Source of the DNA: a virus
Virus record (IMG/VR): IMGVR_UViG_3300030012_000916
Span: 1-22,634 of that record
Strand: one strand, 5' to 3'
Length of the DNA: 22,634 nt
Shown here: in pieces, positions 5,110 to 15,637 of the stretch
How positions within the stretch are numbered: the first letter of the stretch is position 1
How the letters are laid out: every line of letters starts with the position of its first letter
The notes under the pieces: model-generated
Database searches by the model: none
Told to the model about the DNA's origin: nothing
What the model saw: only the letters and a program-made list of their open reading frames with translations
Position numbers and translations under genes: made by a program

Positions 5110-5304
5110 TTACAGAAGACCTTTAAGGCACTTCTTTTGTTTGCGACATTGTGGTTTTTTAGTGCCACAGTAACCACAACGATTGAAAGCAATACCGTTA
5201 TCGACAGTATCAGGTACTATTTTAGTAACAGCAGCTTTGACAACCTTAGATTGATGTGGCATGATCTTTTCAATAATAAATAGGCGTGGACGCTTTCCGA
5301 TCAT
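5110..5304 (-). CDS. Small Cys-rich (zinc-knuckle-like) protein, unknown function
   Basis: 64 residues from ATG 5304, preceded by AAGGAG three bases upstream, a strong if close ribosome binding site. The N-terminal part is basic and hydrophobic (KRPRLFIIEKI). The C-terminal third holds four cysteines in the pattern C-x2-C-x6-C-x5-C (CGYCGTKKPQC and on) within a Lys/Arg-rich stretch. This suggests a small metal-binding fold that contacts nucleic acid or protein. An internal ATG at 5262 (MPHQSK) would give a 50-residue version that keeps all four cysteines. It lies between the riboswitch-controlled peptide and the capsid leader. I do not recognise a named family. Confidence 0.65.
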   Translation of the reverse strand: MIGKRPRLFIIEKIMPHQSKVVKAAVTKIVPDTVDNGIAFNRCGYCGTKKPQCRKQKKCLKGLL

Positions 5305-5359
5305 CCACTCCTTAAACCGTCCCTTCGGGCTTTACAATTTTGGAAAGCTCAGAAGATAT

Positions 5360-5476
5360 TTAGTTGGATGCGATATTACGCTTAACAATGTAAGCGACAC
5401 CACGATACTTCAAGACAATTTCTTTTTGCTTGGCTTGCTGTTCGCGGACACGTTGACGCAATTCAATAAGAGACAT
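5360..5476 (-). CDS. 38-residue DUF4278-like peptide under riboswitch control
   Basis: Starts at ATG 5476 with GGAG six bases upstream (5486-5483) and stops at TAA 5360. The first half is a charged helix (SLIELRQRVREQQAKQKE). The second half, VLKYRGVAYIV, matches the core of DUF4278, the short cyanobacterial family with a K-L-x-Y-R-G-V-x-Y signature. Function is unknown. The ribosome binding site begins four bases after the 3' strand of a pseudoknot in the glutamine-II-like RNA just upstream, so translation is probably reduced when that RNA is folded. Short peptides are the usual genes downstream of this RNA class. The coding call rests on the good binding site, the riboswitch and the family motif; length alone would not support it. 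Confidence 0.7.
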   Translation of the reverse strand: MSLIELRQRVREQQAKQKEIVLKYRGVAYIVKRNIASN

Positions 5477-5490
5477 GATGAACTCCAAAT

Positions 5491-5541
5491 ACCTTACCCC
5501 CCGTTCCATGAGTAAGATGCCTGCGTCCCGAAGGATGAACG
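5491..5541 (-). ncRNA. Glutamine-II (Downstream-peptide) riboswitch-like RNA
   Basis: On the minus strand P1 is CGTTC (5541-5537) paired with GAACG (5506-5502). Inside it, P2 is a TCC/GGA hairpin with a UUCG loop (5535-5526). ATCTTACTC (5518-5510) pairs over nine positions, two of them G-U, with GGGTAAGGT (5499-5491), which lies beyond P1 and so forms an H-type pseudoknot. The strings CGTTCATCC, GGACGCA and ACTCATGGAACGG agree with my memory of the Downstream-peptide motif, later shown to bind glutamine. The pseudoknot ends four bases before the ribosome binding site of the following peptide gene, so ligand binding should lower translation. It occurs in cyanobacteria, cyanophages and marine metagenomes. 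Confidence 0.85.
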
Positions 5542-5553
5542 TACGGCTGAAGT

Positions 5554-5703
5554 CTATTTCTTTTTTGCAGTTTTTGCAGCACGCTTAAAGTTTGCTGCGG
5601 TTGGTGCGCCTTTAGATCCAGGCTTACGCATCTTCTCGCCACTGCCTGCAGCGATCCGCTTACGTTTTGCGTGGATGTTAGCGTAGAGTCCAGGCTTAGC
5701 CAT
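5554..5703 (-). CDS. 49-residue basic phage protein (MAKPGLYANIHAKRKR type)
   Basis: ATG 5703 to TAG 5554, overlapping the preceding gene by 8 bases. The protein is very basic: GLYANIHAKRKRIAAGSGEK, then a Lys/Arg/Gly/Ala section ending in three lysines. I recall near-identical short proteins beside capsid genes of other marine and cyanobacterial phages, always uncharacterised. The charge suggests binding to DNA or RNA, or to the acidic scaffold, during head assembly; that is inference. It is the last of five basic micro-genes between scaffold and the riboswitch, and its stop lies 12 bases before the riboswitch. Confidence 0.85.
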   Translation of the reverse strand: MAKPGLYANIHAKRKRIAAGSGEKMRKPGSKGAPTAANFKRAAKTAKKK

Positions 5704-5911
5704 AGGATTTTTTGGATTTCTTTTTAGCTAGAGGTAGTTGAGGTCCAGTCCGCTTAAGAAATGTTTCTTTTTCGTGCGGATTGTTTGTGCTCTTACCTTT
5801 GTTGTAAATCTTTTGTTTCTTTTGTGCACCTCTGTGGCCTGGGCCAATGTCAAAGGACTGGGAAACAAAGTTACTACCAAAGGCTTTTTGGTCAACTCGT
5901 TTGCTTTTCAT
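5696..5911 (-). CDS. Small basic protein, unknown function
   Basis: 71 residues from ATG 5911, whose A is also the last base of the upstream TAA stop (TAATG). This is better coupled than the in-frame ATG at 5923, which would add four residues. The sequence has GSNFVSQSFDIGPGHRGAQK in the middle and a Lys-rich end (KKKSKKSYG). No catalytic motif or membrane segment is present. It overlaps the next small gene by 8 bases and belongs to the tightly packed basic micro-protein operon between scaffold and capsid. I do not recognise a named family. Confidence 0.75.
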   Translation of the reverse strand: MKSKRVDQKAFGSNFVSQSFDIGPGHRGAQKKQKIYNKGKSTNNPHEKETFLKRTGPQLPLAKKKSKKSYG

Positions 5912-6171
5912 TAGCATTTCCATTTACGTAGTGCAAGAGCCTTCCGTGTAGGACGACCCTTGCTGTCTTTCATTGGTCCTTTGACACCAGACATGCGGGC
6001 ACAAAAAGAACGCTTGCGTGGTCCACCTTCAGGCTGTGGTGCCTTCAGGTTAGACCCTGTAGCTCTGTTATATTTACGCCGACCGGCAGCCGTTAAGCCA
6101 CCGGACCGCGATTTGTGTACACCGATCTTGAGACTTACTGAACGTGTACTACTTTTTGTTGCCTTTGCCAC
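5911..6171 (-). CDS. Small basic protein, DUF6321-like
   Basis: 86 residues with a GTG start at 6171. The central pattern, KIGVHKSRSGGLTAAGRRKY followed by NRATGSNLKAPQPEGG and RKRSFCARMSGVKG, matches a short phage family that I recall as DUF6321, of unknown function. The C-terminus ends with RKALALRKWKC. There is no ATG before the conserved region, so GTG is chosen; it is supported by GGAGG eight bases upstream, inside the preceding 20-residue gene. It overlaps that gene by 23 bases and the next gene by one. Charge and position suggest a minor virion or DNA-binding role, but nothing here proves one. Confidence 0.85.
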   Translation of the reverse strand: MAKATKSSTRSVSLKIGVHKSRSGGLTAAGRRKYNRATGSNLKAPQPEGGPRKRSFCARMSGVKGPMKDSKGRPTRKALALRKWKC

Positions 6172-6211
6172 CTTTCTTGCCTCCGCAAGAGCCTTTACCT
6201 TTGTATGCCAT
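6149..6211 (-). CDS. 20-residue Gly/Lys-rich micro-protein
   Basis: ATG 6211 overlaps the upstream TGA by one base (TGATG) and the frame ends at TAG 6149. The peptide begins MAYKGKGSCGG and is otherwise almost only Lys, Gly and Asn. Its stop lies inside the next gene, so the two frames overlap by 23 bases. The evidence for translation is the coupled start and its place in a run of genes of the same basic type. Such a short frame could also serve only to deliver ribosomes to the GGAGG site it contains. Function unknown. Confidence 0.5.
   Translation of the reverse strand: MAYKGKGSCGGKKGGKGNKK
6180..6184 (-). promoter_or_regulatory. Shine-Dalgarno GGAGG deciding a GTG start
   Basis: GGAGG lies 8 bases upstream of GTG 6171 and inside the 20-residue gene at 6211-6149. 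It selects this start for the DUF6321-like protein, which has no ATG before its conserved region. Confidence 0.75.
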
Positions 6212-6381
6212 CAGCGCATACCTCTCTTACGACGGAGTGCTGCAAAGTCTGCAGACTCAATTTTGAGTTTGTTGCCAGCTTGTCCTGCGATCATACGCTG
6301 ACCACGTGAAAGCTTTTTCATTTTCTTTTTTTTAGGAGGGCGTCCAACTTTGGAGCCGTATGTTCCAGGTCCGTAAGGCAT
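6211..6381 (-). CDS. 56-residue basic protein, unknown function
   Basis: ATG 6381 follows the scaffold stop after two bases, and the frame ends in TGA at 6211, overlapping the next ATG. Residues 1-15 (MPYGPGTYGSKVGRP) are Gly/Pro-rich. Next come a run of lysines, LSRGQRMIAGQAGNKLKIES and DFAALRRKRGMR. It is first in the basic micro-protein operon and is strictly co-oriented and coupled with the scaffold gene. No known fold was recognised; a nucleic-acid or scaffold-binding role is inferred from charge only. Confidence 0.8.
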   Translation of the reverse strand: MPYGPGTYGSKVGRPPKKKKMKKLSRGQRMIAGQAGNKLKIESADFAALRRKRGMR

Positions 6382-7141: not shown

Positions 7142-8704
7142 TTATTGGGTGGGAGGTTGTTCTTGTGCTAATTCAGGATTCTTTGTAGGATCCATCATTG
7201 GTGTTTTCATTGCATCAACTTCGAGCTTCTGTTGTTCGAGCTGCATTTGTTGTTGCATTGCGGCTTGCTGTTCCTGTTGTACTTCTTCCATAGAACGTAC
7301 AAGGTTAAGTACATCAATGCCTTGTGCTGCAGCCAGACGTTTAATAACTTCGTCAGTGTTAATAAACTGTGCAATGGACTCAGGTCCGATTGTCTGTGCA
7401 AGAGTTGTCAGGAAAGATCCAAGACTCTCACGATCTTGGCCGCGGCCTAGTGCATTTACACCTGCAACGATAGTAGGTTTAACAATGTTCTTAGGGATGC
7501 GAGGAATCTCACCTTTACGTTGTGCTTCGCTGAGTTTACGGTTCAGGTACGGAACAAGGAAGTCAACAGTCAAAAGGCTAAACAAACCACCGAGCTGTTG
7601 CTCCAGTTCCATCTGTGTCATCCGTACTTCTTCTGCAGTCGTGCGTTCACTCTGCCTGACGTTTAGGATCAGGAATGCTTCGCTAAGACGACGTTCGAGA
7701 ATCTGTGTCATCTCAAATGCTGTACGGAAGTCAGCGGTCTTACCGACCTGCACAACACCGACATCATCAGGACGACCTTGGATGATTGCACCGTTACCTG
7801 CAGCGGCTAAAGTGCTGGGCTTTGTAGTAGACGAGGGGCTAACAGTAAACACAACCTTTGCGGCTGCTGCAGAGCCTTCTACCAGTGCCTGAGACAATCC
7901 TTCGAGTGACTTAAGATCACCGATAAACTGACCAACACGTCCGCGTCCATAGCTTTCACCATCGACTGTGTTAAACCTGAGCGGAATCCAAGGTGTATTG
8001 TTAATAGGTGACTTACCTTGAGACCCTTTGATAATTTTGTCACCGACTTCTTGATGCCACATGAAGCGATTGTTGTCACGCCTTACATGTGTGTACACAT
8101 CCATGTCGTCATTGTATTGTCCGTCTTCACTAACACTCTTAGTGTCAGCAAAGAAATCAGGTGGTAGTTGATCTTTGAGAATACGTTTTGAGATACGTTC
8201 TTTCGTGATTATTTCAACCACTTGACCGTTGCCATCCCGATCCACAACGTAGCGATTCAAAGGATAGATCTTCAGTCCAAACTTGCTCATGTAGACAAGA
8301 GCGTTGCCACTGACGACAAGATGCAGCAGTGCTTGGTGTACAGCTACACGGTCATCTGATGCGGCAATAGATTCAAGAATGATACGCTCAATCTTTGCAA
8401 AAGACAAATCGAGTTCGGATTTAATTTGTGGCCCGAAGTCTTGACCCAACTGACTTTCGTCGAGTTGCAGTTTGAAAAACGAAGTCTGCACAGGAAGCAG
8501 AGCTAGCATCAATTTAGATGCCAACGTCACACAACCCTTAGCTCCAACGCTTTGGTACGGTGTCTTAAGTTGTTTCATGCCCATGGTGTATTCTTCATGA
8601 CCACGAATCAAGTATGGAAGAGTCAGCTCTGATGCTTGACGTGCTTCTTCTAAGAACTGGGAACGATCGCTGGCTAAATAATCATATCGTGTACGTGCTG
8701 ACAT
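7142..8704 (-). CDS. Portal (head-tail connector) protein, gp8-like
   Basis: 520 residues, against 536 in T7 gp8. The dodecameric portal is the vertex through which DNA is packaged and released. Recognisable segments are the N-terminal RYDYLASDRSQFLEEARQAS and TLPYLIRGH, GAKGCVTLASKLMLALLP, the PLNRYVVDRDGNG core, and WIPLRFNTVDGESYGRGRVG in the middle. A Gln-rich C-terminus (EVQQEQQAAMQQQMQLEQQK) probably forms the crown helices. The start at ATG 8704 overlaps the upstream stop by one base (TAATG). It is the first gene of the head assembly block. Confidence 0.95.
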   Translation of the reverse strand: MSARTRYDYLASDRSQFLEEARQASELTLPYLIRGHEEYTMGMKQLKTPYQSVGAKGCVTLASKLMLALLPVQTSFFKLQLDESQLGQDFGPQIKSELDLSFAKIERIILESIAASDDRVAVHQALLHLVVSGNALVYMSKFGLKIYPLNRYVVDRDGNGQVVEIITKERISKRILKDQLPPDFFADTKSVSEDGQYNDDMDVYTHVRRDNNRFMWHQEVGDKIIKGSQGKSPINNTPWIPLRFNTVDGESYGRGRVGQFIGDLKSLEGLSQALVEGSAAAAKVVFTVSPSSTTKPSTLAAAGNGAIIQGRPDDVGVVQVGKTADFRTAFEMTQILERRLSEAFLILNVRQSERTTAEEVRMTQMELEQQLGGLFSLLTVDFLVPYLNRKLSEAQRKGEIPRIPKNIVKPTIVAGVNALGRGQDRESLGSFLTTLAQTIGPESIAQFINTDEVIKRLAAAQGIDVLNLVRSMEEVQQEQQAAMQQQMQLEQQKLEVDAMKTPMMDPTKNPELAQEQPPTQ

Positions 8705-9897
8705 TAAACATTAAGTGCTGAAATTTTCATAAGTCGGCCACCTTTGCGGCCAAAGGTTCCAGATATACCTCGCATACCTTTTTGTGCAGCAGGACCACGT
8801 GTAGCAAAACGAATGCCTTCAACCTGCGGAGCACCTCTTTGAGATGCAAGTGATCGTTGGAACGACATAGCTTGCTCTTGTCTTGCCTGTTCATTGGCTG
8901 CACGTTCAGCAGCAAGACCAGCTTCATACTGTTGTCTTTGCTGTGACATGGTACCGCGCAAAGCTTCAAACTCTTTCTGTGAAGCAGATTGTTGAGAAGC
9001 TAGAGTCTCTGAAAACTTAAGCCTGTCTGCAGCAGCAGTTTTTTGTTGTGCACTGAGAGCTTCTTGAAACTTTAACTGATTAGCAGCGGATGTTTGTTGT
9101 TGTGAACTGAGAGCTTCTTGAAACTTTAACTGATTAGCAACGGATGCTTGTTGTTGTTGCTTGAGTGACTGCTCAAGCGTTTGACGTTCGAGTGCAGCAG
9201 TACCAAGTTGTGATTGGTACATACCCTTCAATTCATTAAGTGTTTTGGCTGAAAGGGTTTGTTGTCTCGCAAGCTGCTCCTCTGCTGATTGACGTTGAGA
9301 TGTTAAACGGCTAGTAAAATCACTTTGCTGACCAGTAAAACGTTCATTAAATGCTTTTTGTTGTTCAGAAAGCTGCGATTGAAATGACATACCTAGTTGC
9401 TTTTCAGCAGCTTCTCGTTCAGCCTGCATTTTCGCTGTAAGGTCTGCGAGTGTAGTCTTGTATCCACTTTGAATGTTGCCAATGCGTTCATTCAAGCCAC
9501 TGATTCTCTGTTCATACTCAGCTCTTTCTTTAGAGAAATCATACGGCTCGTACTTCGGTACGTCTTGCAGAATCTTTAGTTGCTTTTGCAGCTCTGCAAT
9601 TTGGTTTGCCTGTTCTGGATTGTCGCGGTATTCAATTTTAAGGGCTTGTTGTTGTTGTTTAGAAAAATCTCGATAGACGTGTTGACCAGTGCCAATTCCA
9701 TCATCATCTAAATATCCAACAATATCAACTAGAACTTTGTTATCACCGGGTTTGAATGAAACATCATCCTTGAAAACCGATTGCTGAGGGTCACGGTGAA
9801 TTTTTTTAAAGAGGCTAGGGTTTTTACGCGATAAGTTATATACAAGGTCATGAATGGAATCAATTCCGACCAAGTCAGGATGTTGATCTGCTATCAT
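8704..9897 (-). CDS. Large coiled-coil protein just upstream of portal; likely virion or ejected protein
   Basis: 397 residues. Residues 1-85 look globular; about 90-345 are an almost unbroken Gln/Glu/Ala-rich coiled coil. In that region an 18-residue unit occurs at least three times (NQLKFQEALSSQQQTSAA, then NQLKFQEALSAQQKTAAA, then a DRLKFSETL copy). The last 45 residues are different: Gly/Arg-rich, with GMRGISGTFGRKGGRL and ending SALNV. T7 has the small virion proteins gp6.7 and gp7.3 at this locus, and gp7.3 also ends in a Gly/Lys-rich, hydrophobic tail, so a virion-associated role is likely. No enzymatic motif is seen. It overlaps both neighbours by one base. Confidence 0.85.
   Translation of the reverse strand: MIADQHPDLVGIDSIHDLVYNLSRKNPSLFKKIHRDPQQSVFKDDVSFKPGDNKVLVDIVGYLDDDGIGTGQHVYRDFSKQQQQALKIEYRDNPEQANQIAELQKQLKILQDVPKYEPYDFSKERAEYEQRISGLNERIGNIQSGYKTTLADLTAKMQAEREAAEKQLGMSFQSQLSEQQKAFNERFTGQQSDFTSRLTSQRQSAEEQLARQQTLSAKTLNELKGMYQSQLGTAALERQTLEQSLKQQQQASVANQLKFQEALSSQQQTSAANQLKFQEALSAQQKTAAADRLKFSETLASQQSASQKEFEALRGTMSQQRQQYEAGLAAERAANEQARQEQAMSFQRSLASQRGAPQVEGIRFATRGPAAQKGMRGISGTFGRKGGRLMKISALNV
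9052..9159. repeat. Tandem 54-base repeat, two copies
   Basis: Copies at 9052-9105 and 9106-9159 match at 50 of 54 positions. They encode two of the 18-residue units of the coiled-coil protein. The near-identity at DNA level points to a recent in-frame duplication; a third, more diverged unit lies at lower coordinates. Confidence 0.9.
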
Positions 9898-10079
9898 TAC
9901 TTATTATCCTCCATATATTTAATGACCCACTCAACGACACTACGTTGACCGGATCGGTACATAATCTTTTGCATTGTATCGTCAGGTGTAGGGTTGGTGG
10001 GTGGGAAAGATTCTTCGAGTGCATGAATCAATCCTTGAGAGTTCATCCCAAGGACTTCAAGCATATTGAGGGAGGTCAT
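9897..10079 (-). CDS. 60-residue protein, unknown function
   Basis: Begins at ATG 10079 (MTSLNMLEVLGMNSQG), overlapping the RNR beta stop by 23 bases, and ends one base into the next gene (TAATG at 9897). A GTG at 10109 would add ten residues. The sequence has a Pro-rich middle (SFPPTNPTPDD) and an amphipathic C-terminal helix (SVVEWVIKYMEDNK). There is no clear ribosome binding site, so coupling to nrdB translation is likely. It lies where T7 has gene 7 and small virion genes, but I do not recognise a family. Confidence 0.65.
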   Translation of the reverse strand: MTSLNMLEVLGMNSQGLIHALEESFPPTNPTPDDTMQKIMYRSGQRSVVEWVIKYMEDNK

Positions 10080-10773
10080 TGTTACTGTGTTCAAAGAAGG
10101 CTGGAACACGTGATGCTTTTGTGAAAGACAGCTCAGGGGCTTTACCTTTATACATCAAACGATCACTTGAATCCATCCAAAAATTTTTGTTTAGATATTT
10201 GTCAGGGTTGGATGCAGACAGAGGCTGCAAAACCCAACTCATAGTTGCCTTCCTGAGACGATCAAGAGAAGGACTGATGTTATACCCCAGCTCAGTATGA
10301 ACCAAACTATTGGTAGCCACATGAATTTGTTCATCTCTGGAAATATCTGCACTACAGGTCCTCATCCCAGGGTCACCAAGAGCGCGAAAGAGTGGTAAAA
10401 GAACAAAGAAAATCGCACGTTCGGCCACCATTGCTTTGGTGATCGTGTGATCAGGATGCGAAGTCCAAGCTTCACGGAGTCGAAAGGCTTCATCCTCAGC
10501 TTTCTCATCAACGCCGTGAGCAGCGGCAATGAAACCAAGTGCGAGGTCATGTTTTTCTTCGTCCTTGACGTTGGACAGAAGTAGTTCACGCGCCAACTCT
10601 GGTACTTCAGTGGCGAGAGCTTCATTAATAAAATCTCCCACAGGCAGTTCCATGTGACGCAAGGCAAGGGCACGTTTTAATACATCGTGTGCCCCTTCTT
10701 TGATAGTACCAGCAGTCGTCTGTACTGGTGTCCATGTTCTTTTTCGTTCGAGTAATTTTTGATACGGGTTCAT
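10057..10773 (-). CDS. nrdB: Ribonucleotide reductase class I beta subunit, non-tyrosyl type
   Basis: 238 residues, shorter than E. coli NrdB (376), with a ferritin-like di-metal site. Likely ligands are E42, E72 and H75 (DEEKH), E118 (VAERA), E148 and H151 (DEQIH). The residue four places after H75, where E. coli has the radical Tyr122, is Leu79, so a stable tyrosyl radical cannot form there. The protein ends with a Tyr (DLPQYA) that may serve the radical path to alpha. It starts inside the nrdA stop (ATGA). The product would hold the metal cofactor that activates the alpha subunit for dNTP synthesis. Cyanopodovirus RNRs were once called class II because this subunit had been overlooked. Confidence 0.85.
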   Translation of the reverse strand: MNPYQKLLERKRTWTPVQTTAGTIKEGAHDVLKRALALRHMELPVGDFINEALATEVPELARELLLSNVKDEEKHDLALGFIAAAHGVDEKAEDEAFRLREAWTSHPDHTITKAMVAERAIFFVLLPLFRALGDPGMRTCSADISRDEQIHVATNSLVHTELGYNISPSLDRLRKATMSWVLQPLSASNPDKYLNKNFWMDSSDRLMYKGKAPELSFTKASRVPAFFEHSNNDLPQYA

Positions 10774-12140
10774 TCTTGACAGTCGCAGGTTTGTTCTTCA
10801 TTAAGAATGTCTGCAAGGTACTGGTCAACATCATCTTCAGCTAGTGCAGCGTACGCATCTGACTTATCTTGAGTGTCTCCCATAACTTGTAGACTGTAGT
10901 AAAGGGAGGTCTGTGGAGATTCCAACCACTCTTCGATAAAGGCTTCGTCATATGTAACGACATCACTCCAACTGTTGAAGCTGTACCCGTGAAGAAGTCC
11001 CGTGCGGTCAAGCATGGTCATGATGCCATCGGCAACACGTTTGTAGTTTGCCCAACCAACTTCTGATGCGATTTCTACATCGCCATATTCGTATGTCTGG
11101 ACACCAAAGGTGCCACTATCTCTGTCTACTGTACGCCCGACAGGCGGCGCGATTTCTGGTGTGCAAGTATAACCATCTAAATCCTTGCTGCGGTAACTGC
11201 AGGAGGCAGTGGGTGCGATAGCAAAGGCGCGAACCATATTGTGAGACCTAGCCATTGCTGCGGCAGACTCAATACCAATGGCAAACTTAGAGACCAACTC
11301 ATAAGCTGGTGTGCGTACCACCTCACCTGCATTGTATTGGTCTAAAGCAATGCCGAATTGCTCATAGGTTATTCCGTACCGCCGTAAGAGATTTGCCAGT
11401 CCGAGCATTCCGAGTCCAACTTGTCGGTCGGTCTCAGGTCTGAGGTATTCTCCAGAATCGCCAACGCCAGTTTTAGCCAGGAGGGTGCACAGCTCCGACA
11501 TACCCTGAACGAAAGCTCCTGGAATCTCGTCGAACTCACAGGCACCGAGATTACAATGTTGAAGCAAGCAGGTACCTCGTGAGGGCAGGTAAACTTCAAG
11601 GCAGACGTTTCCTCGTATCCGGTTTCCATCATTGTCGTACTTTACTTTGTTGAGCCAGACATCGCCCGCTTTAATTGATTGGAGTAGTTGTTCCTTGAAC
11701 GTGCACGACCGCCACCAACCTTCAGTGATGTTGATGCATCGTTTGACCCATGGCAATTCGTGGCGTGGTGTAGTAATAAACTCAAGGGCATCGTCATGGC
11801 AAAGATCAAGGTGGCAGACCACAGCGCCGTTTTTATACACGCCACCACGACGTAGGATTTCATTTAGTGTTGAGTAGATTTTTGCGAAAGAGACTGGTCC
11901 AGATGCAACCAAGCCTTTACCATTTTCTGCTCCTTTGGGTCGCAGTTCCGACAAGTGGACAGCGCAGCCTGCTCCATGGCGTAAAGCGTGGCTAGTAAAT
12001 CTCCAGCTCGCTTCAATTCCATCTGGACCCTCCATAGAATCCTGGACAACAAATACCGTGCACGAAACCGGCAATCTGGACGTTGGATCATCCATCCAAG
12101 ATTGGACACGTCCGGTGCGAGTAATTACTGAGGTAGTCAT
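10770..12140 (-). CDS. nrdA: Ribonucleotide reductase catalytic (alpha) subunit, short cyanophage form
   Basis: 456 residues with no ATP-cone, against 761 in E. coli NrdA. Catalytic features: C27 (PVSCTVF, first redox cysteine); N178, C180 and E182 (NVCLEV, thiyl radical site); HCNLGACEF right after; APTASCSY at 310-316; a tyrosine pair Y414-Y415 (SLYYSLQ); and a C-terminal C452-D-C454 pair for re-reduction. The tyrosine pair is the radical path of class I enzymes and is not expected in class II, which agrees with the beta gene that follows. It reduces ribonucleotides to deoxyribonucleotides for phage replication. It overlaps mazG and nrdB by 4 bases each, forming a compact dNTP operon. Confidence 0.92.
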   Translation of the reverse strand: MTTSVITRTGRVQSWMDDPTSRLPVSCTVFVVQDSMEGPDGIEASWRFTSHALRHGAGCAVHLSELRPKGAENGKGLVASGPVSFAKIYSTLNEILRRGGVYKNGAVVCHLDLCHDDALEFITTPRHELPWVKRCINITEGWWRSCTFKEQLLQSIKAGDVWLNKVKYDNDGNRIRGNVCLEVYLPSRGTCLLQHCNLGACEFDEIPGAFVQGMSELCTLLAKTGVGDSGEYLRPETDRQVGLGMLGLANLLRRYGITYEQFGIALDQYNAGEVVRTPAYELVSKFAIGIESAAAMARSHNMVRAFAIAPTASCSYRSKDLDGYTCTPEIAPPVGRTVDRDSGTFGVQTYEYGDVEIASEVGWANYKRVADGIMTMLDRTGLLHGYSFNSWSDVVTYDEAFIEEWLESPQTSLYYSLQVMGDTQDKSDAYAALAEDDVDQYLADILNEEQTCDCQE

Positions 12141-12508
12141 TCGATAATAAGATCAAGAAGATGTGGTTCTTTATAGTTAGGTCCCTTCAGGACTTTGCCG
12201 TCTGCACGGTAGATAGGTTTGCCGTTGTCATCCAACTTAGACATGTTGGATTCGTGGACCCGACGCATGGCTTCGTCAAGGTCCCACTCTTGTGACGCAG
12301 CAAACTGGTAGCAAACGTACACAAGGTCTGCTAGTTCTTTAAGCTGGTCACAATCATCTTTCATGTGGTAAGCCTCATGAAACTCTGACCATTCCTCATC
12401 GATCAAAGCTTTCTGCACGCCTTTTTCCGCTATCCCAGTCATCAACATATACGCTGAGCGGAACTGTTCGGCCATCGTCATCAGGCTGCGATGAATGTAG
12501 GAGTTCAT
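12137..12508 (-). CDS. mazG: MazG-like nucleotide pyrophosphohydrolase
   Basis: About 123 residues from ATG 12508 (MNSYIHRSLMTMAEQF). Starts at 12481 or 12475 are also possible, and none has a strong binding site. The fold signature is complete: EEWSEFHEAY carries the E-E-x-x-E metal motif, and KELADLVYVCYQFA carries E-x-x-D. Such enzymes cleave NTPs or dNTPs, or related alarmones, to monophosphates plus pyrophosphate. In cyanophages mazG is a common auxiliary gene thought to adjust host nucleotide or ppGpp levels. The C-terminal NMSKLDDNGKPIYRADGKVL also fits the family. The gene overlaps DUF3310 by over 100 bases and nrdA by four. Confidence 0.85.
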   Translation of the reverse strand: MNSYIHRSLMTMAEQFRSAYMLMTGIAEKGVQKALIDEEWSEFHEAYHMKDDCDQLKELADLVYVCYQFAASQEWDLDEAMRRVHESNMSKLDDNGKPIYRADGKVLKGPNYKEPHLLDLIIE

Positions 12509-12686
12509 TTTCAAGATAGTGGATAGCTTTTTTAAGGTCTTGAATCTTTGTGTCAGGACTCTTGTAACCGGCTCGGCAAATATATTTAATAGCATTGCCG
12601 AGATGGTAGTTGAGGTCTTGGTCTCTGATGAAATCCCAAACTTCTATTGCTCCTCGGGTGTAGTGAGCAGGGGATTGTTCGGCCAT
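12396..12686 (-). CDS. DUF3310 protein (SaV-like family)
   Basis: 96 residues from ATG 12686; an upstream in-frame GTG at 12728 would add 14. The DUF3310 pattern is clear: HYTRGAIEVWDFIRDQDLNY, HLGNAIKYICRAG, and DLKKAIHYLENEL. This short helical family is very common in phages, is sometimes annotated as nucleotide kinase, and has no proven activity. Here it sits between nblA and mazG with overlaps on both sides, consistent with a role in nucleotide metabolism or host modulation. The region after about residue 70 (SSQPDDDGRTVPLSVYVDDW) is not conserved and overlaps the start of mazG in another frame. Confidence 0.85.
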   Translation of the reverse strand: MAEQSPAHYTRGAIEVWDFIRDQDLNYHLGNAIKYICRAGYKSPDTKIQDLKKAIHYLENELLHSSQPDDDGRTVPLSVYVDDWDSGKRRAESFDR

Positions 12687-12886
12687 TTCTTTACTAGGTT
12701 TGTAACAGTGTTGGACAGGCAGAAGCACTGTCGTTGTAGCGCAAGGAAGACAGTAATTAGATCTGCCTTCTCTGCTTCTGGCAATAGGTCTTCAAGCCTT
12801 CTAAGTTTGAACTGCTGCTCTACCGTCAGCTCTACTACTGGTGGTGGTGGGAAGCCATGGTATGACTCTCCGTTCGACTGCATCAT
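12644..12886 (-). CDS. nblA: NblA-like phycobilisome degradation protein
   Basis: 80 residues (59-65 is usual for the family). After a Pro-rich N-terminus (HGFPPPPVV) comes ELTVEQQFKLRRLED, matching the NblA signature L-S-x-E-Q-x-F-x-L. Then come ADLITVFLALQRQ, equivalent to the L-x-x-x-x-R-Q second helix, and a C-terminal NTVTNLVKKW. NblA binds phycocyanin or allophycocyanin and the ClpC chaperone and drives phycobilisome breakdown. Phage copies are known mainly from freshwater cyanophages. The only in-frame ATGs are 12886 and 12883, inside the exonuclease gene, so the two genes overlap by 86 bases. It could free amino acids or cut light absorption late in infection. Confidence 0.85.
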   Translation of the reverse strand: MMQSNGESYHGFPPPPVVELTVEQQFKLRRLEDLLPEAEKADLITVFLALQRQCFCLSNTVTNLVKKWPNNPLLTTPEEQ

Positions 12887-13556
12887 AATCAGTATGCTGT
12901 AATATTTTTGCGAGACGTGCGTTCATCAATGCAATGTCTTCATCCAATTCTTTGGACTTAAATGCTTTGACAACTGTGTCCCATGTGTAGCCATCCTTTT
13001 CAAACAAGTCGATGGCACGTTTGACACCAACACCAGGCACTCCACTGTAACCATCGGTCTGGTCACCGGCAAGTGTCTGAATCAGATGCCAACGCATACC
13101 TTCTTCCTCTGTGATGTCTACAGTTTCTTTAAGGTCATACAGTCTTCCAGGAATCTGTCGCATGTCTTTGTCTGGACTAACAATGATGTTGCCAGGTTCG
13201 TGTGTTGCAAAGATACCCATGGCATCGTCAGCTTCCAGCTCAGGGATGCGAACGACTTTGTAGAAGGAACTTAGTTCTGTGATAACTCGCTTGTAGCCAC
13301 AGGGTTTCTTACGATTTCGGTGACCCTTGTAATCAGGGTAAATTTTTTTCCTAAAATTCTGAGAGTCACTGAAGAACAGAACAGGCTCTGCAAACATGAA
13401 CTCAGACCGGATTTTGACAACCTCTCGTTCGACTGCAGCGTATGCTTCGCTAAACTTGCTGACTACAGTGATGACATCATCACCCCAGTCAATTTCATCC
13501 TCTGCTGCAGCACAGCACTTGTAAACAATGAAGTCAGCGTCGATGAGCAGTTTCAT
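12801..13556 (-). CDS. 5'-3' exonuclease (T7 gp6-like, FEN family)
   Basis: 251 residues. The acidic metal-site motifs are in order: LLIDADF at 3-9, ELEADDA around 105, SPDKDMRQI around 127, and GDQTDGYSGVPGVGVKRA around 165-182 (the last with the helix-three-turn-helix). T7 gp6 removes RNA primers and degrades host DNA to nucleotides. The gene starts inside the stop of the LAGLIDADG gene (ATGA). The conserved protein seems to end near VIPWLP; the last 17 or so residues (TTTSSRADGRAAVQT) overlap the nblA start and look like filler. Its place after DNA polymerase agrees with T7. Confidence 0.93.
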   Translation of the reverse strand: MKLLIDADFIVYKCCAAAEDEIDWGDDVITVVSKFSEAYAAVEREVVKIRSEFMFAEPVLFFSDSQNFRKKIYPDYKGHRNRKKPCGYKRVITELSSFYKVVRIPELEADDAMGIFATHEPGNIIVSPDKDMRQIPGRLYDLKETVDITEEEGMRWHLIQTLAGDQTDGYSGVPGVGVKRAIDLFEKDGYTWDTVVKAFKSKELDEDIALMNARLAKILQHTDYDAVERRVIPWLPTTTSSRADGRAAVQT

Positions 13557-13996
13557 TTTTTTGAGTGATACCAGGCAAAGAACTCGTCACATTTGGCACG
13601 GCGACGTTCGTGCATGTAAGGGTAAAATCTGATAATCAAATCATGAATTGTTTTACGAGCACCTGTCTTCCACTTACCAGAAGGCTTGTGGTTTTCCTTT
13701 CTAGAAGGTGATTTACGCAAACCATTGAGGTTTCCTACAAAACCGATGGCTTCATAATATGACCACAACACATCCATGTCGGTCATTTCAACACTCATTT
13801 CCCATTTGTCTTCAGTTGTGCAATAGCTAAGACAACCTTCGCCTTCAAAAATACCAGTAGCCCAGGCAAAAGGGTCAATGAACGTCAGCCCAACTGTGTC
13901 CTTCTTTGGCTTCGGCTGCGATTGGTATTCTGAGATTGTAGTATTCTCCGGCTCGTCTTGCGGATTCGAGAAGATATTCTGAAAGATACTTTGCAT
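13553..13996 (-). CDS. LAGLIDADG homing-endonuclease-like protein, start uncertain
   Basis: The conserved domain starts right after the DNA polymerase stop: DPFAWATGIFEGEGCLSY carries one LAGLIDADG motif with its acidic residue. It is followed by WEMSVEMTDMDVLWSYYEA and a basic region ending FYPYMHERRRAKCDEFFAWY, typical of short single-motif phage members, which would act as dimers. No ATG, GTG or TTG precedes the domain outside the polymerase gene. ATG 13996 lies 120 bases inside it and would add residues that are merely polymerase sequence in another frame. An ATT at 13879 overlaps the polymerase TGA by one base and could be a rare start. It ends with an ATGA overlap onto the exonuclease. 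Coordinates use ATG 13996 as the nearest standard start. Confidence 0.75.
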   Translation of the reverse strand: MQSIFQNIFSNPQDEPENTTISEYQSQPKPKKDTVGLTFIDPFAWATGIFEGEGCLSYCTTEDKWEMSVEMTDMDVLWSYYEAIGFVGNLNGLRKSPSRKENHKPSGKWKTGARKTIHDLIIRFYPYMHERRRAKCDEFFAWYHSKK

Positions 13997-15149
13997 TTTT
14001 AGGGTGGGTTTCGTACTGCAATTCGTCATGGATAAACGCAAGCTGGTGACAGTCGATGTCTTTAAGAGACTCGTTTGCCAATACCATCCAGCGTTTTGCT
14101 ACAACACCGGCTCCTGACTGGAGCAGGTAGTTTAATGACTTATGTTTACTTTCGACCTTAATAGGTCTGCCGTCAATAGATTTTACGTAGCCTTTTTGGC
14201 TTGCTCGTTTTATAGCCTTAAGGAGTTCTGCAAGGCCATCAATAGCAGAAACAAATGCCTCTCTAATTTCTGACCCTTTCTTTTTTGCTGCATTAGCTTT
14301 CAGGGTAGAGTCAAAAGAGAGTCCAATTTTGGCGTCACCTGCACCGTAGAGGAAGGCGTAAGTGACTGTTTTAACTTCGCGCCTGCTGATTCCAATCTTG
14401 TCTGCGTTGACTTGATGGATGTCTCCGTTGAGGAGAATGTCCGCATAGCGTCCTTCATCATATTTAGCAAGGTAATGTGCGAGCATCCGTAGCTCAATGC
14501 CACTAAGATCGGCACCCACCATAACTTGACCAGGCGATGCTTTAAAAAGTTGTCTACAGTCATGATCAGAAGGTACTTGGCTTAAATTAGGTTTACGGTG
14601 TGCACATCTATGCGTATTAGTTGAAACTGAACAGTGGTGATGTATACGGCTAGCAGTCGTACATAGCTTCAGCCATGCGTTCATGCCTTCCGAGATCATC
14701 CCCAATTTCTTTGTAATAGTTAGACACTTCAGAAAGTCCTCTGCAATGGTAATCCCACTTGCAGCAACTTCCTTCAGTACAGTCTCGTCGATCAGGATTT
14801 TGCCTGTTTTTGTTTTTTGTGTCGGCTTCCATTTGTAATGCCACTGTAAGCACCACGCTATGTGGTCACGTGATACAGGATTGAATTCGGTGGTGCGGGT
14901 GAATGTTGCTCCGGCAATATACCCGTAGCGTCGGTTATTTGCTTTAGGAGTAAATTCCGATCGTGGGTAGAAAGGATGCCTGTCTTGTAATAGCCTACAA
15001 GTTTCTTCAAGCTCTCTTCGGAGAGAAGATGACAGTTCCCATGCAGCGCGTTCATCAAAATACCATCCATGGAGTTCCTGTTGGGTGAGAATTTGTGCTA
15101 CCTGATGTTCTAGCGTGCACCAGTCAGGTAAGGGTGGAAGTGGTCGCAT
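13875..15149 (-). CDS. DNA polymerase, polymerase domain (T7 gp5-like, split)
   Basis: 424 residues covering the family A polymerase part. Catalytic Asp214 lies in VGADLSGIELR and Asp375 in AFIHDELQ; the O helix is KTVTYAFLYGAG with Lys260 and Tyr264; ILLNGDIH is also conserved. The C-terminus SWADVH keeps the final His found in T7 gp5 (NWAICH). In T7 the loop before the FNPSSRDHI region carries about 76 residues that bind host thioredoxin; here this stretch (about 58-82) is only some 25 residues. The exonuclease domain is a separate upstream gene, and the two frames overlap by 40 bases. No strong ribosome binding site precedes ATG 15149. Confidence 0.92.
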   Translation of the reverse strand: MRPLPPLPDWCTLEHQVAQILTQQELHGWYFDERAAWELSSSLRRELEETCRLLQDRHPFYPRSEFTPKANNRRYGYIAGATFTRTTEFNPVSRDHIAWCLQWHYKWKPTQKTKTGKILIDETVLKEVAASGITIAEDFLKCLTITKKLGMISEGMNAWLKLCTTASRIHHHCSVSTNTHRCAHRKPNLSQVPSDHDCRQLFKASPGQVMVGADLSGIELRMLAHYLAKYDEGRYADILLNGDIHQVNADKIGISRREVKTVTYAFLYGAGDAKIGLSFDSTLKANAAKKKGSEIREAFVSAIDGLAELLKAIKRASQKGYVKSIDGRPIKVESKHKSLNYLLQSGAGVVAKRWMVLANESLKDIDCHQLAFIHDELQYETHPKNAKYLSEYLLESARRAGEYYNLRIPIAAEAKEGHSWADVH

Positions 15150-15637
15150 AGTTTGCGAGTAACGTTGACATCTTGTATGCAGTAATCTTGCATCTCTTGA
15201 GACCAGTCTTGCCAGTCGGTGTGTTTACCGAAGCAACCTTTGTACTCTTCGAGCCTGTAGCCGTAGCTCTCAAGCGAGTGGCGACCATAGAGCTGCAGTG
15301 GCATTTGATACCACTTGTGTCTGTGATCAATGTCCAACATGTCTGTGTGATACAGACGTGACAGGAGCAAAGTGTCTACAACCAAGGCGGTTGGTGTGAA
15401 CCACGGGTAAATTTTCTGAAGACAGGGGATGTCGTATCCCAACACGTTATGGCCGACCATAACCTCACAGTCTTCGAGCCTTTGGACACCGCGTGTAATC
15501 GGCTCAGCGTCACCTTGATCGTTAAAAACAATCGTCTGATTAGTTTCTTGCTCATAGATAACAAGGCAGTGGATGCAGGTAACATCATTCAGGAGTCCGT
15601 TGCTTTCGAGGTCGAACACTAGCGTGTTTCCAGACAT
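15110..15637 (-). CDS. DNA polymerase, 3'-5' exonuclease domain (T7 gp5 N-terminal part)
   Basis: 175 residues with the DnaQ-like proofreading motifs in T7 gp5 order: VFDLESNGLL (Asp and Glu of Exo I), VGHNVLGYDIP (Exo II) and YCIQDVNVTRKL (Exo III). Between these, VVDTLLLSRLYHTD, RHSLESYGYRLEEYKG and MQDYC align with T7 gp5. The frame ends in TAG at 15110 while the polymerase part is already open from 15149 in the -1 frame. The last residues (PYLTGAR) are not family-like. In unsplit relatives DHFHP would be followed at once by the LPDWCTLEH found in the other frame. It lies 50 bases after the primase-helicase stop. Confidence 0.92.
   Translation of the reverse strand: MSGNTLVFDLESNGLLNDVTCIHCLVIYEQETNQTIVFNDQGDAEPITRGVQRLEDCEVMVGHNVLGYDIPCLQKIYPWFTPTALVVDTLLLSRLYHTDMLDIDHRHKWYQMPLQLYGRHSLESYGYRLEEYKGCFGKHTDWQDWSQEMQDYCIQDVNVTRKLCDHFHPYLTGAR

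Follow-up and report, generated by a model that had tools for sequence, protein, structure and literature searches.

A probable phage-borne nblA in the replication and nucleotide-metabolism block of a T7-like cyanopodovirus

The window analyzed here is a 22,634-base virus record. Judged by family matches and collinearity, its genes are those expected of a T7-like cyanopodovirus. They include those for RNA polymerase, SSB, endonuclease, primase/helicase, a split DNA polymerase, exonuclease and ribonucleotide reductase (RNR), together with portal, scaffold, capsid and tail tube, and every listed gene lies on the minus strand. The replication genes were assigned by family and the remaining genes by collinearity with S-TIP37 and the uncultured phage MedDCM-OCT-S28-C3 (AP013539, Pedosvirus, Mediterranean; S28-C3 below). 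The NblA-like gene that the initial annotation had proposed was recovered as exactly that ORF of 80 codons on the minus strand (Table 1).

Table 1. Positions and assignments of features in the window.
Feature	Positions	Strand	Assignment and remarks
nblA-like gene	12644..12886	-	80 aa; N-terminal ELTVEQQF, helix-loop-helix with L64/K66/W68 close to the C-terminus of helix 2
T7-like 5'-3' exonuclease	12801..13556	-	Pfam 5_3_exonuc_N; phrog_107 exonuclease
DUF3310 protein (PHROG 'nucleotide kinase')	12396..12686	-	PF11753 (E 4.6e-15); phrog_236
MazG-type nucleotide pyrophosphohydrolase	12137..12484	-	PF01503 (E 1e-9); phrog_671; start codon chosen by us within a longer open frame
Ribonucleotide reductase large-subunit-like protein	10770..12140	-	456 aa; PF02867; phrog_367
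Ribonucleotide reductase beta-subunit-like protein	10057..10773	-	238 aa; phrog_6799, class Ia beta subunit (E 1.4e-122)
DNA polymerase (3'-5' exonuclease and polymerase ORFs)	13875..15149 and 15110..15637	-	
Small ORF between DNA polymerase and exonuclease	13553..13981	-	phrog_5046 'HNH endonuclease' (E 4e-14)
Scaffold-capsid interval	5110..6381	-	
DUF6321 protein	5911..6171	-	
Glutamine-rich coiled-coil-like protein	8704..9897	-	397 aa

Several other features of the window deserve mention. The two DNA polymerase ORFs overlap by 40 nt, an arrangement likewise annotated in S-TIP37 and P-SSP7 that could reflect either a split gene or a programmed frameshift. The small ORF that follows overlaps the polymerase end and contains a GIFEGEGCL motif, which makes it look more like a remnant of a LAGLIDADG homing endonuclease than its PHROG match suggests. 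The scaffold-capsid interval holds small unknown ORFs besides the DUF6321 gene and gave no match to psbA or hli, both of which S-TIP37 carries in the corresponding stretch. The coiled-coil-like protein encoded between the RNR genes and portal matched no PHROG or Pfam family; a comparable gene occupies the same place in the S28-C3 genome.

The order exonuclease-nblA-DUF3310-MazG-RNR is complete on one strand in 108 of 127 loci. Exonuclease lies immediately upstream of nblA wherever enough sequence is available (119 of 119 loci), and a DUF3310, MazG or RNR gene lies downstream in all of 112 loci, with these counts slightly inflated by a few contigs that were entered twice under two locus numbers. 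The position initially described, between the exonuclease and dNTP genes, is correct and holds across the relatives, with DUF3310, MazG and RNR as the genes that follow, and the place of nblA in the replication/nucleotide block is nearly invariant. This conserved order makes a link between nblA and phage DNA synthesis plausible, although gene position by itself is no proof of a functional link.

The first 86 nt of nblA are shared with the 3' end of the exonuclease gene and the last 43 nt with the start of the DUF3310 gene, and the selection test was therefore confined to the 37 codons that overlap neither neighbor. In this core, comparison of the window with relatives at loci L003 and L005 gave dN 0.05 and dS 1.14, and dN 0.04 and dS 1.35, respectively; the corresponding values were dN 0.22 and dS 2.48 against S-TIP37, and dN 0.01 and dS 0.21 against S28-C3. 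Substitutions fall mostly at third codon positions, and strong purifying selection acts on the core. All relatives examined except S-RIP1 keep the frame open, while the plus strand across the same interval is closed by stops. In S-RIP1 (locus L049, about 1385-1593), the two halves of nblA match in different frames, an apparent frameshift that could reflect a pseudogene or a sequencing error.

Residues 19-67 of the product match the Pfam NblA family PF04485 at 29 bits (29.3 in a second search; E 1.5e-6), against a gathering cut-off of 25, and both features that had initially been read as signs of NblA were located, ELTVEQQF at residues 19-26 and the LALQRQ helix at residues 48-53. L20, T21, E23 and Q24 are invariant in the phage-family alignment A1, built from the window protein plus 21 relatives from phages (22 sequences). 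When the window protein alone was searched against the PDB, the top match was the NblA entry 3CS5 (E 0.0023); with profile A1, the four NblA entries 3CS5 (E 2.6e-8), 1OJH (0.0014), 2Q8V (0.006) and 2QDO (0.019) outrank all other chains. Sequences of host NblA came from 388 genomes searched with Pfam, 278 of which had a match, and alignment of A1 with 13 cyanobacterial NblAs by hhalign gave a probability of 96% (E 2.8e-9) and a score of 48.9, which is 3.5 times the best score among 60 column-shuffled profiles (14.0); the reversed profile scored 11.5. The equivalog cut-off of NCBIfam NF045916 (phycobilisome degradation protein NblA) was missed, at 22.5 versus 100 bits. A search of the genome contigs with profile A1 returned five loci only, some in apparently misbinned genomes, and no picocyanobacterial NblA.

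The hhalign comparison pairs L64 and K66 with L51/K53 of host NblA, reportedly identified by Bienert et al. in 2006 as C-terminal phycobiliprotein-contact residues of the Anabaena protein. L64 is invariant in A1, whereas K66 is variable, being T in S-TIP37 and E in P-SSP7, and is not kept across the phage family. AlphaFold2 placed helices at residues 22-37 and 40-67 and packed them as a hairpin, with mean pLDDT of 92-96 over residues 21-60 and 83 over 61-70, in agreement with the two-helix fold anticipated for NblA. The product is thus predicted to adopt a helix-loop-helix of the NblA type over about 60 residues. Foldseek of this short model (pTM 0.50, little power) against the PDB gave no match, and neither BFVD nor VIA-align yielded a usable one; these blanks count neither way, because a lone two-helix model holds too little fold information. 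Profile and profile-profile matches, predicted secondary structure, synteny and selection together identify the window protein as a genuine NblA relative. It shares the EL(S/T)xEQQF motif and the helix-loop-helix with cyanobacterial NblA (3CS5, 1OJH, 2Q8V), as well as a lysine and a tryptophan close to the C-terminus of helix 2, but identity is about 25%, its N-terminus is longer and proline-rich, and its C-terminal tail differs.

The initial annotation held phage nblA to be known from a few, mainly freshwater, cyanophages, a view that does not survive the wider search: at least 589 viral contigs in IMG/VR encode a relative, and 14 cyanopodovirus strains had been predicted to carry nblA by Nadel et al. 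(2019; cited in PMC9602691). The phage collection contains 38 matching records, of which 37 belong to cyanophages or uncultured marine phages. Many of these records leave the gene unannotated, and it is often missed because it overlaps the exonuclease gene. The closest copy, in S28-C3, is 95% identical over all 80 residues and has the same position after the exonuclease, but is not annotated as a gene. The marine or estuarine T7-like cyanophages S-TIP37, S-RIP2, S-SBP1 and S-CBP1/3/4 carry copies 59-70% identical to that of the window, with the same locus and gene order and minor differences in sequence and C-terminal tail length. The window gene is an ordinary member of an auxiliary family already known in marine cyanopodoviruses and very common there.

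The family extends to phages of Prochlorococcus. Homologs lie at the same locus in P-SSP3 (host MIT9312), NATL1A-7 (host NATL1A) and P-SSP7 (PSSP7_019A; the host field of the record is empty and Prochlorococcus is named in its title), and P-GSP1 (host MED4) has a weak match just upstream of RNR. The first three are 40-49% identical to the window protein, with a two-residue insertion between the helices and K66 replaced by E or Q. Their profile (A3) aligns with A1 at a probability of 100%, yet they fall below the Pfam NblA cut-off and match host NblA weakly by hhalign (probability 42%, E 2.6e-4, score 25.2 versus a shuffled-control maximum of 13.8). P-SSP7 and P-SSP2 differ by 19 synonymous and 4 non-synonymous changes in the 37 codons (dN 0.05, dS saturated). 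The Prochlorococcus-phage homologs are collinear with the Synechococcus-phage sequences and nested among them, with moderate support because the alignment is short. Prochlorococcus uses chlorophyll-binding antennae in place of phycobilisomes and has no nblA orthologs (PMC7439483); its lack of nblA rests on that paper, taxon names not being given in the 388-genome search. Because homologs under selection occur in phages of such hosts, nblA alone sets no host limit, and the initial narrowing to phycobilisome-bearing cyanobacteria does not hold. The window protein groups beside the Mediterranean S28-C3 and passes the Pfam cut-off, which makes Synechococcus a reasonable, though unproven, host.

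Could the reading frame merely be a side effect of the two genes that overlap it, exonuclease and DUF3310? The extent of both overlaps and the missing annotation in several genomes invite this explanation, but purifying selection on the overlap-free codons, and a frame kept open in every examined relative but S-RIP1, make it vanishingly unlikely; chance-ORF and overlap-artefact readings are ruled out by the 37-codon selection test, since the gene is conserved where it overlaps nothing. A second explanation accepts a real gene and takes its product for an unrelated small helical protein, for example an accessory of the exonuclease or of a nucleotide enzyme, that resembles NblA by chance. The fixed position within a replication/nucleotide operon and the modest single-sequence Pfam score would fit, as two-helix proteins match easily. 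Against this, all four PDB NblA entries head the A1 matches, the hhalign score far exceeds its shuffled controls, and the NblA signature motif is among the conserved columns, so that we regard chance resemblance as very improbable.

A different target is harder to dismiss. The protein could be an NblA-derived Clp adaptor that during infection delivers not, or not only, the phycobilisome to the host ClpC protease, for example residual phycoerythrin, photosystem or defence proteins. The same-locus homologs in phages of a host without phycobilisomes or nblA, maintained by purifying selection (P-SSP7 versus P-SSP2) and nested among Synechococcus-phage sequences, point in this direction. The window protein itself, however, exceeds the NblA cut-off, while the forms in Prochlorococcus phages are divergent and lack a Pfam match; those phages may also meet Synechococcus, and the recorded host of P-SSP2 is Synechococcus WH8017. 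That the cyanopodovirus family consists of broader Clp adaptors, not strictly phycobilisome-specific, thus seems possible but rather unlikely. If true, retention in Prochlorococcus phages would mean that host ClpCP proteolysis is redirected to other targets; the diverged yet selected copies raise the testable question of what role NblA has without a phycobilisome.

We consider the window gene most likely to be a functional phage-borne nblA encoding an antenna-degradation adaptor. Our analysis bases this on homology, the helix-loop-helix prediction, the strength of purifying selection and the fixed block position; counted against it are the NCBIfam equivalog score far below cut-off, the non-conserved K66 and the persistence of homologs in phages of phycobilisome-free hosts. 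Work published in 2025 on a genetically modified cyanophage reportedly showed that viral NblA accelerated infection and reduced host light harvesting. Binding of ClpC and phycobiliproteins, antenna loss and a benefit to the phage would be expected by analogy with known NblA proteins. NblA is a ClpC adaptor for phycobilisomes (PMC7966870), with a ClpC motif near the N-terminus and a phycobiliprotein motif near the C-terminus (PMC4103541), and expression in model cyanobacteria of nblA genes from marine viral metagenomes and freshwater phages led to a loss of phycobilin (PMC9602691). A mechanism is proposed where the product forms an NblA-type helical hairpin (solved relatives are dimers) that would link the host phycobilisome to the ClpC chaperone; the conserved N-terminal EL(T/S)xEQQF motif would contact ClpC, and the C-terminus of helix 2 a phycobiliprotein. 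ClpCP would then degrade the antenna, freeing amino acids during phage replication. The window phage can probably dismantle the light-harvesting antenna of its host, as is common among marine T7-like cyanophages.
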